A DNA stretch of 36,483 bases. Source: Oscillospiraceae bacterium. Its GTDB lineage: Bacteria > Bacillota > Clostridia > Oscillospirales > Ruminococcaceae. This document shows positions 7,243-20,317 of the stretch, piece after piece (the first letter of the stretch is position 1; each line of letters begins with the position of its first letter). The position numbers and the translations under genes are program-made. Location: contig JAQYLI010000024.1 in NCBI GenBank assembly GCA_028720105.1, positions 1-36,483 of the forward strand, given 5' to 3'. The notes below the pieces were generated by a model that saw nothing but the letters and a program-made list of their open reading frames with translations, was not told the origin of the DNA and searched no databases.

Positions 7243-7686
7243 TTACACCTCCGGAACGTAAATGAAATTTACTGGATTGATTACTTGTATTTTATCTGTC
7301 TGATATTTCAAAAGTCTGATATCCGTTGAAAGAAAATAATCCGCTTTGCCGATTATAGCAGCAGCAATATGAAGAGAATCCATTTTCTTCACACCTGTTT
7401 CCATAATCTTCGTGGCTTCCGACAGAATTTGCTCCGAATATGATTCATCAACATAAACCGAAGCATTTTTAAAGAAATCGGCAATTGAAGTTTTTCTGTT
7501 GACATTCGGGTTTCTGAAATTTTCATATACGGAAATATATGAGTAAACAAGGCTTAACTTTTTCTCAACTATCAGCTGCTGAATGTGGAGTTTTGCCTGT
7601 GTTTCAAGGCTGATACGAAGCTGGGACTGATCATCATAAGGTCGGTTGTAGCAGCAATTATCCAGATAAACGCTGATGTTATTCAT
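7243..7686 (-). CDS. PIN-domain protein (putative toxin RNase)
   Basis: A 147-residue PIN-fold protein. The acidic residues that hold the catalytic metal are visible: VYLDNCCYNRP near residue 9, a central YENFRNP Glu near residue 55, KKMDSLHIAAA near 106 and DYFLSTDIRLLK near 120. PIN proteins of this size are typically VapC-like RNases. The gene has a good GAGGAG ribosome site and its own consensus promoter, and is followed by a coupled 68-residue gene and a strong terminator, making a self-contained cassette. Its base composition is more AT-rich than the flanking genes, suggesting acquisition. Activity and target are unproven; some members of this branch may be solitary nucleases. Confidence 0.8.
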   Translation of the reverse strand: MNNISVYLDNCCYNRPYDDQSQLRISLETQAKLHIQQLIVEKKLSLVYSYISVYENFRNPNVNRKTSIADFFKNASVYVDESYSEQILSEATKIMETGVKKMDSLHIAAAIIGKADYFLSTDIRLLKYQTDKIQVINPVNFIYVPEV

Positions 7687-13839: not shown

Positions 13840-15544
13840 AATGTCACGCAGACAATATGCGGATATGTACGGTCCCACCACAGGCGACAGGATACGTCTG
13901 GGCGATACCTCACTCATAATCGAGGTTGAAAAGGACTACGCAGTCTACGGTGAAGAAGCGAAATTCGGCGGCGGAAAATCACTCCGTGACGGAATGGGAC
14001 AATCCTGCTCCGTAAAGGATGCCGACTGCCCCGATACCGTCATCACAGGCGCAGTAGTAGTTGACTGTACGGGAATTTACAAGGCTGATATCGGCATAAA
14101 GGACGGAAAGATATGCGGCATCGGCAAGGCGGGAAATCCCGATATAATGGACGGCGTGACCCCCTCTCTGGTATTCGGCGCAGGCACGGAAGCCATAGCA
14201 GGCGAGGGACTTATCCTCACCGCAGGGGGTATCGACACCCATATCCATTTCATCAGCCCCACACAGATCGAGACCGCCCTCTATTCGGGCATAACCACAA
14301 TGATAGGCGGCGGAACAGGCCCCGCAGACGGCACCAACGCCACCACCTGCACCCCCGGAAAATTCAACATAGAAAAAATGCTTGAAGCCGCCGAGGAATA
14401 CCCTATGAACTTAGGCTTTCTCGGCAAGGGCAACAGCGGCAGTCTTGACACCCTCACCGAGCAGATTGAAGCAGGCGCCTGCGGACTGAAAATACACGAG
14501 GACTGGGGCTCCACTCCCTCGGTAATAAATAAGGCACTCACCGCCGCAGACAAATACGATGTTCAGGTGTCAATCCATACCGACACCCTTAACGAAGGCG
14601 GCTTTGTGGAGGATACCATAACGGCAATAGGCGGCAGAACTATACATACCTACCATACCGAAGGCGCAGGCGGCGGTCACGCCCCCGATATAATCAAGGC
14701 TGCAGCATTCCCCAACATTCTCCCCTCCTCCACCAATCCCACAATGCCCTTTACGAAGAACACCCTTGACGAGCATCTCGATATGCTTATGGTATGTCAT
14801 CATCTTGACAGCAAGGTGCCCGAGGACGTGGCATTTGCAGATTCAAGAATTCGCCCCGAAACCATAGCCGCCGAGGACGTGCTTCACGATATGGGCATAT
14901 TCAGTATGATGTCCAGCGACAGCCAGGCAATGGGACGAGTAGGCGAGGTCATTACAAGAACCTGGCAGACCGCTTCAAAAATGAAGGACCAGCGGGGCGC
15001 ACTTCCCGAGGACAGCGACAGAAACGACAATTTCCGTGTAAAGCGCTACGTTTCCAAATACACCATAAACCCTGCCATAACTCACGGCATATCCGAATAC
15101 GTAGGCTCCGTCGAGGTGGGAAAAATTGCAGACCTCGTGCTGTGGAAGCCCGCAATGTTCGGTGCAAAGCCCGAAATGATAATCAAAGGCGGATTTATCT
15201 GCGCTTCACGAATGGGTGATGCCAACGCCTCTATCCCCACCCCCCAGCCCGTCATCTACACAAAGATGTTCGGAGCGGAAGGACTTGCGAAAAAGCGCAC
15301 CTGCATAAGCTTCGTGTCAAAGGCGGCGGCTGACAGCGGTATAGCAGAGCGGCTGGGACTTCAAAAAATCGTTCTTCCCGTAAAGAACTGCCGAAATATC
15401 GGCAAAAAGGATATGCGCTTCAATGACCGTACAGGCGATATCAGGGTAGACCCCGAGACCTACAGCGTAACGGTAGACGGCGAACCCATTACCTGCAAGG
15501 CGGCAGAAAGCCTTCCCCTCACCCAAAGATATTTCCTGTTCTGA
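13832..15544 (+). CDS. ureC: Urease alpha subunit (catalytic)
   Basis: A 570-residue catalytic subunit. All nickel and active-site residues are present at a constant offset of three from Klebsiella numbering: His137 and His139 (DTHIHF), the carbamylated Lys220 and His222 (GLKIHEDWG), His249 (SIHTD), His275 ([11 protein letters not shown]), flap Cys322 and His323 (VCHH), Arg339 and Asp363 (SSDSQAMGR). Full length and intact, so an active enzyme is expected once UreDEFG insert nickel. I start at [15 protein letters not shown] with GGGGGAA upstream; ATG 13841 is a possible alternative. The gene is followed by a 70-base AT-rich gap, the largest break inside the urease block. Confidence 0.97.
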
Positions 15545-19847: not shown

Positions 19848-19876
19848 TTGTAATTTCAAAATCTTTGTGGTATAAT
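19848..19876 (+). promoter_or_regulatory. Sigma-A promoter of the structured leader
   Basis: TTGTAA at 19848-19853, a 17-bp spacer and TATAAT at 19871-19876. A perfect TTGACA at 19824-19829 is not correctly spaced for any -10 and is probably a decoy or older site. Transcription should start near 19883. Confidence 0.65.
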
Positions 19877-19880
19877 AAAA

Positions 19881-20026
19881 ATATGTTCAGGGAAACATAT
19901 TCTCCCGGAATAAAAAATTTGGAGATATGTTTTAAAATCATTTTATCAAACCGAGTTTTGTTTCTTTGTTAAAGTAAAGCTTTCCTTGAGAAAGCCGCAA
20001 AACTCTGAGAAAAGGAGGATAATATT
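19881..20026 (+). ncRNA. Structured 5' leader with alternative hairpins
   Basis: About 145 bases precede the 96-residue gene. Hairpin A pairs ATATGTT (19881-19887) with AACATAT (19894-19900). Hairpin B pairs AACATAT+CTCC (19894-19905, one bulged T) with GGAGATATGTT (19921-19931). A and B share the same strand and exclude each other. Next, GAGTTTTG (19953-19960) pairs perfectly with CAAAACTC (19998-20005) and encloses two hairpins: CTTT-GTT-AAAG (19964-19974, extendable) and GCTTTC-CTTGA-GAAAGC (19979-19995), a three-way junction. The ribosome site AAAAGGAGG begins five bases after the junction stem. This looks like a regulatory RNA; no known riboswitch class is recognised. Confidence 0.6.
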
Positions 20027-20317
20027 TTGAAAGGTTTAGGTGTTGCAATACTCACAATGCTCGCTGCCGCTGCAGGAGCCGCTGCCGCAGTTTATGCCGT
20101 TAAGAAGCGCGAGGAGCTTGAGCAGTACGACTACAGCTTCGACGATGACGACGAGATCTACTTCGGCGACGATGATGAATGCTGCGATTGCTGCGGCTGT
20201 TCCGACAAGGACGAAAAAGCCGACGACGTAGAGGAGCTTGAGGCTCTTGACGGCGCAGACGATGCAGACGTTGAAGCTGCTTCTTCCGAGGACAAGGACG
20301 AAGAAGCCGATTTCTGA
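20027..20317 (+). CDS. Acidic single-span membrane protein with CCDCCGC cluster
   Basis: A 96-residue protein starting with TTG, eight bases after a strong GGAGG. Residues 2-24 form one Ala-rich membrane helix (GLGVAILTMLAAAAGAAAAVY), followed by a Lys/Arg anchor (VKKREE), so the tail should be cytosolic. The tail is extremely acidic (long Asp/Glu runs) and holds a compact Cys cluster, CCDCCGC, at about residues 52-58, then ends in EEADF. The Cys cluster in an acidic tail suggests metal binding (inference). Its expression is probably controlled by the long structured leader. I do not recognise a family. Confidence 0.75.
   Translation: MKGLGVAILTMLAAAAGAAAAVYAVKKREELEQYDYSFDDDDEIYFGDDDECCDCCGCSDKDEKADDVEELEALDGADDADVEAASSEDKDEEADF

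Follow-up and report, generated by a model that had tools for sequence, protein, structure and literature searches.

A degenerate copy of a dispersed, structured repeat, probably a MITE-like guest, between an old ribosome site and the start codon of an Oscillospiraceae gene

The window, a stretch of 36,483 nucleotides from the genome of an Oscillospiraceae bacterium (contig JAQYLI010000024.1), carries a gene for a protein of 96 residues, in which a Pfam scan found no match. The features of this gene and its leader are:

19848..19876, + strand: promoter of the 96-residue protein gene, TTGTAA and TATAAT separated by 17 nt, with TG before the -10
19884..19912, + strand: ancestral leader with a small hairpin, UGUUC.GGGA...UCCC.GGAAU
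19921..19926, + strand: old Shine-Dalgarno (SD) sequence GGAGAT, by comparison with AAGGAGATGACTTT-ATG of the orthologous locus L002
19929..20016, + strand: inserted structured repeat, a degenerate copy, scoring 65.7 bits with model R1 and 56.1 bits with model R2
19929..19951, + strand: decayed 5' hairpin of the repeat (family consensus GTTTGAAAATC-AAA-GATTTTCAAAC)
19953..20005, + strand: junction closed by GAGTTTTG/CAAAACTC, with inner stems A and B between the arms in the family
20010..20018, + strand: SD brought by the repeat, AAAAGGAGG, now the SD adjoining the start codon
20027..20317, + strand: gene for the 96-residue protein, with a TTG start; the protein is acidic and Cys-rich, with a hydrophobic N-terminus

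The TATAAT region of the promoter can be aligned in eight orthologous leaders, and the -35/-10 pair predicts a transcript start at about 19883. A sequence-only reading of this leader had proposed a switch of mutually exclusive hairpins followed by a closed three-way junction. The pairings themselves exist as letters: ATATGTT (19881-19887) can pair with AACATAT (19894-19900), and AACATAT together with CTCC can, after one bulged T, pair with GGAGATATGTT (19921-19931). The 8-bp stem of GAGTTTTG (19953-19960) and CAAAACTC (19998-20005) is exact, and is followed by AAAAGGAGG. The first arm of the proposed switch is probably only partly transcribed, because the predicted start falls inside it. The right arm straddles the joint between the old SD and the inserted repeat.

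Folded as a single strand, the full leader is not markedly more stable than its shuffles (19881-20026: z -1.58, 15 of 200 shuffles equally good; 19884-20060: z -0.60, 52 of 200; 19929-20026: z -0.74). The only part that stands out is the junction at 19949-20009 (z -2.76, 2 of 200 shuffles). The hairpin of the ancestral leader is weak (z -0.96 in the window), and a GGGA-type hairpin folds in L002-L005 too. The earlier reading had the 8-bp stem enclose two hairpins; in the family, stems A and B lie between its arms, but the best fold of the window copy's junction is a rod within the 8-bp stem, with the inner stems rearranged. The window copy folds best with UCAUUUU-AUCA of the decayed 5' arm paired to AAAAGGA of the SD; over the fold ensemble this SD is 0.61 unpaired, against 0.33 with the element shuffled.

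Matches to the 96-residue protein were found in 22 of 61 related genomes. The closest relatives (L002-L005, 80–93% protein identity) have their start codon at the usual distance after the SD, whereas in the window about 100 nt separate the old SD at 19921 from the start codon. The repeat is absent from the 21 other orthologous loci, and the covariance model matches one of the 22, the window's own. A structured, RNA-like module does lie just 5' of the ribosome site, but this gene does not have it as a conserved leader.

The inserted stretch is a member of a dispersed family. A DNA search with it revealed numerous copies, partial or full, in this genome and a few sister species; 40 matches were fetched, one of which (L072, from G016) is not a copy, leaving 39. 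The element measures about 90–125 nt and consists of a 5' hairpin, a closed multi-hairpin junction and an SD. Its consensus runs from the GTTTGAAAATC-AAA-GATTTTCAAAC hairpin through GAGTTTTG, stem A, stem B, CAAAACTC, TCAAGAAAGGA and sometimes ATGGTCATAA to the start codon, and the inner part holds from zero to three hairpins across copies. The pattern GAGTTTTG-(6-60)-CAAAACTC occurs at 17 places in this genome and at 52 in 20 genomes of the genus, compared with one for the backward-read control; among the 52, G011:C136 shows a plain hairpin instead. Across the family the junction greatly exceeds chance expectation. A second match of the repeat model in the window (7367-7476, E 0.12) was taken as chance.

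An alignment of the window copy with 24 of the 39 copies, those of regular inner length, shows two-sided changes in 10 of 30 pairs, and 95.7% of it is paired, compared with 24.8–59.0% in slid controls. A larger alignment was built from 99 preselected loci with matches at E<=1e-4 (L097, L098, L112-L115, L122, L192 and L211 were left out). Its 99 distinct rows show two-sided changes in 25 of 30 pairs; 95.6% of the cells are paired, against 84.5% when shuffled and 27.9–64.9% in slid controls, and two-sided cells number 300 against 69 (0 of 500 shuffles), in an alignment that was fitted to the model and is therefore biased toward structure. The family fold is backed by covariation. Covariation, which the earlier reading had proposed to test among leaders of the 96-residue protein gene, is strong across the dispersed copies; the module is absent from the other orthologous leaders. 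One copy (L092, G000:C13) is interrupted by another palindromic sequence, GCGGATTTTCGAGC...GGCAAAAATCCGC.

Within the genus there are 74 model matches at E<=0.01 (tandem units counted singly), in at least 7 of 20 genomes, one of them weak; 24 of the matches belong to this genome. Matches were found in at least 33 of 396 genomes and at least 15 of 126 genera of the family, and in at least 15 of 394 genomes of the order, eight of which belong to five other families. These genome counts are lower bounds, as few candidates per genome were scored. The order search supplied 17 fetched rows, including 14 of its 15 matches outside the family. The same layout was recognised by eye in 12 of the 17, among them 9 of the 14 outside the family, with at least one in each of the five families; it is not clearly the same in L216 (two rows), L217, L219 and L224. 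From G004, 10 of 11 matches were fetched, and L193 and L194 were left out of the analyses. A search for an exact 34-mer gave nine stretches, in five named Oscillospiraceae/Ruminococcus MAGs of which three derive from water deer gut. Phage and plasmid collections gave no match to the element, and origin from a phage or plasmid was rejected on that ground; one exact pattern searched in viral contigs also had no match.

Orthologous loci are mostly empty. The PdxS locus is filled in one of six cases, that of this genome, and at 99% protein identity G018 reads GAAAGGAACGATAT-TTCAATG, where the window's genome has the element between these two parts. At TrpS only this genome is filled among the 15 loci examined (L151 and L153 of an original 17 were set aside, the gene start lying off the contig), and at Fmt, a protein with formyltransferase domains, only G018 among 17; the names PdxS and TrpS were assigned by eye. 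The scan of orthologous loci also gave two weak opposite-strand matches (E 0.04 and 0.1), which overlap true copies. The empty TrpS site in G018 could have arisen by excision, given the SD-like letters at either flank of the element there. Furthermore, a 90-nt copy is 100% identical in two genera (L175 and L177), where it precedes different genes, one transporter-like by eye and the other a response regulator. The empty orthologous sites and this identical copy in two genera indicate that the element is mobile.

Tandem copies occur as well. At L210 two whole elements abut at GGTCATAA|GTTTG, and in G011 (L112, L113 and L114) subfamily units about 90 nt long follow one another head to tail, with TTATTATG or a similar sequence at the joints. 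The genes after L113 and L114 start almost identically (MSKIKFITDSASDI...). Looked at for terminal inverted repeats and a target-site duplication, the element shows arms of internal hairpins and joints ending AA or AT, and the four empty sites compared fix no duplication. The element resembles a MITE in being short, in its many dispersed copies and in its presence or absence at four orthologous sites. It has no conserved coding capacity, its reading frame not being kept.

Placement was scored on 105 copies, 68 from the genus and 37, mostly the best-scoring, of 104 matches outside it; eight tandem-unit rows of L112-L114 were left out. A loose test for a downstream open reading frame was uninformative (94 of 105 copies, but also 46% of random positions). 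Under a strict gene-start rule, 90 of 105 copies precede a gene on the forward strand compared with 21% of controls, and 55 do so with a recognised SD compared with 5%. On the other side and the reverse strand the rule finds 26 of 105, near the control rate, one of them with an SD. In six of the 15 misses a start codon was recognised by eye (L078, L081, L053, L191, L200 and L208); L192 was missed since it was scored on the wrong strand, the other strand reading ...GAAAGGATGGTCAAAATAATG; and L080, L092, L119, L052, L069, L186, L188 and L211 are without a clear downstream gene.

An SD-like 5-mer lies within 17 nt 5' of the element in 72 of 102 copies (L192, L115 and L211 further left out), compared with 12.8% of random positions drawn from those loci. 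The corresponding figure for the 3' end, 93 of 102, is partly circular, as the model includes the SD. When L186, L188 and L092 are also left out, the joint ends in AA or AT in 76 of 99 copies, and GGTYAT (GGTCAT or GGTTAT) follows the element's SD in 31 of 99, against 123 of 3960 controls. Most copies examined stand in a single orientation directly 5' of a start codon, as a rule with an older SD before them. Nine loci from other genera (L182, L183, L189, L210, L218, L220, L225-L227) have an extra hairpin, e.g. GCATTTTCCC..GGGAAAATG, which separates the element's SD from the start codon and often precedes GGTCATA.

Over the same 99 copies the element's SD is predicted to be unpaired at 0.67 natively, compared with 0.43 when the element is shuffled (p 3e-16). 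This suggests that folding tends to keep the SD insulated, a behaviour that fits a tolerated guest better than a switch. For a switch that hides and frees the SD, the pairing is missing in the eight relatives and the SD is mostly free over the 99 copies, but part of it is paired in the window copy's best fold. On account of that pairing, we keep a regulatory effect, local to the window copy or general, under consideration. A Pfam search of 19 downstream genes, the window protein not among them, gave a diverse set that includes IMP cyclohydrolase, SecA, RuvA, a formyltransferase, ALAD, IspD and urease. No shared functional theme was found among the 19, and a regulon was rejected on this basis.

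The window stretch is quite probably a worn copy of a mobile structured repeat, most likely a MITE-like guest that replaces the ribosome site it interrupted. Such an element would insert after an SD-like sequence, with a joint usually ending in AA or AT, and its 3' end would bring a new SD, so that the interrupted gene would still have a ribosome site at the usual spacing. The hairpin and junction would fold on themselves and leave this SD mostly free, and therefore the insertion would be tolerated. It would most likely be spread in trans by a mobilising enzyme, as MITEs are, with inner hairpins gained and lost along the way. The single orientation may reflect a strand-specific SD-like target motif together with the loss of insertions inside genes; it could instead come from selection or function.

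Which enzyme might act in trans was explored for the Y1 transposase (PF01797). It shows no association with the element, being present in 16 of 33 element-bearing genomes and 159 of 363 others, and was rejected as a partner. At E<=0.001 none was found in the element-rich genomes G000 and G002, the genome of the window included, which are drafts in which a gene may have been missed.

More tentatively, the element may target the translation initiation site itself, inserting in sense between SD and start codon, perhaps at the level of mRNA or of single strands, and holding its replacement SD open. The occurrence of copies in tandem suggests that every insertion restores the target it used.

The strong structural conservation, and the position and orientation at the start codon, would also suit a global cis-regulatory RNA. 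Here the hairpin and junction would bind a protein or sense a state such as translation, temperature or an RNase at many genes at once, and copies would have spread since genes thereby come under that control. Copies that sister species have in common before the same gene (L073/L057, L074/L056/L068 and L089/L058) and the partly paired SD of the window copy speak for it as well. We nevertheless consider it unlikely: the downstream genes are without a common theme, presence at PdxS, TrpS and Fmt is lineage-specific, inner hairpins are gained and lost, copies such as the window's have decayed, and the SD is mostly open in predicted folds. That the hairpins of a mobile element serve as RNase sites or stabilisers, separating the expression of operon neighbours as described for ERIC, is a similarly minor prospect; stable hairpins do lie between the old and the new SD, but no test run here points to cleavage.

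That the element codes, as an N-terminal leader peptide (reading MFENQRFSNRVLF...) with translation from the old SD, is highly improbable and was rejected: the consensus copy is open in frame and 32 of 102 copies have an ATG at the left joint, but the other 70 do not, the frame where present runs from 2 to 142 codons, and the stem letters change in pairs. Least probable of all, and rejected, is a riboswitch or protein-responsive leader specific to the 96-residue protein; the pairings are real and the module adjoins the ribosome site on its 5' side, but the module occurs in 1 of 22 orthologous loci, AACATAT is found in none of the eight aligned leaders, the first arm straddles the predicted transcript start, and copies are dispersed before unrelated genes. 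The comparison of homologous leaders, which the sequence-only reading had named as its own refuting test, therefore goes against it. The metal or stress ligand that it had tied to the Cys-cluster protein finds no support, since the module stands before unrelated genes.

Bacteria commonly carry small interspersed repeats, and it is to these that the preferred reading, a mobile guest, assigns the element. IS200/IS605-derived palindromic elements (PATE, REP) have hairpins near their ends. The present repeat is like them in this, and in that the flank and the element's 3' end often end in AT, possibly without target duplication; it differs in the missing association with a Y1 transposase. Riboswitches and protein-responsive leaders (Rfam) are likewise folded RNAs before an SD, but the repeat is not tied to one pathway and its SD is mostly open. 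In keeping with the earlier impression of an undescribed structure, the Rfam scan gave no family at its gathering cut-off and only chance-level matches (E 0.23 or worse). Our literature search found no description of the element, which may exist as an unnamed candidate, e.g. in supplementary tables, nor any repeat lying mostly between ribosome-binding site and start codon with a ribosome-binding site of its own.

BOX of Streptococcus pneumoniae comprises short, dispersed, transcribed repeats that are held to be parasitic (PMC3049150). In the part of that source drawn on here, BOX resembles the present element in its variable internal modules and low current mobility, and differs in not being described as confined to the interval from SD to start codon and in bringing no SD along; the two are set apart by description, not by boxA/B/C sequence (PMC3049150). 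ERIC/RU, NEMIS (Correia), RUP and YPAL MITEs are comparable in length (roughly 100–170 bp) and non-autonomous, and ERIC is transcribed together with neighbouring genes (PMC2229807). RUP targets TA and YPAL dyad symmetry, rather than a start codon, and the portion of the source used describes no restored SD (PMC2229807). Rickettsia palindromic elements are similar as palindromic repeats of 105–146 bp tolerated at genes, but are, in the same portion, also fused in frame inside genes, whereas the present repeat lies before the start codon and keeps no reading frame (PMC2229807). The present element behaves as small interspersed repeats of the MITE type do, which does not imply membership of a named family.

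If the preferred reading holds, a mobile part has taken the place of the translation start region in a number of gut Oscillospirales genes, whose start codons may be wrongly annotated, and the question arises of what recognises an initiation site. Should start-site targeting also hold, the element would count as a new class of RNA-structured mobile elements, given its spread over several families within the order. The case also cautions that a convincing 'riboswitch' in one genome can be a repeat.

Elsewhere in the window, Rfam 5_ureB_sRNA matches with 72 bits at 13982-14276 (- strand), antisense within the urease alpha open reading frame, which probably reflects conserved coding sequence. The family of the 96-residue protein (window 20027-20317, L001-L022) is uncharacterised; its members have a hydrophobic start and an acidic tail, together with a motif like VKKREELEQYDYSFDDDDEI, and only some of them have the Cys cluster. 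Three species (L007, L008 and L009) have another leader in common, CAGGGTGATTT...AAAAAGTCCGATGAT, directly after the promoter, and at L017 tandem repeats of roughly 90–95 nt (CGGGTAACAGCGGCGTTTCGC...) lie on the 3' side of the orthologue.
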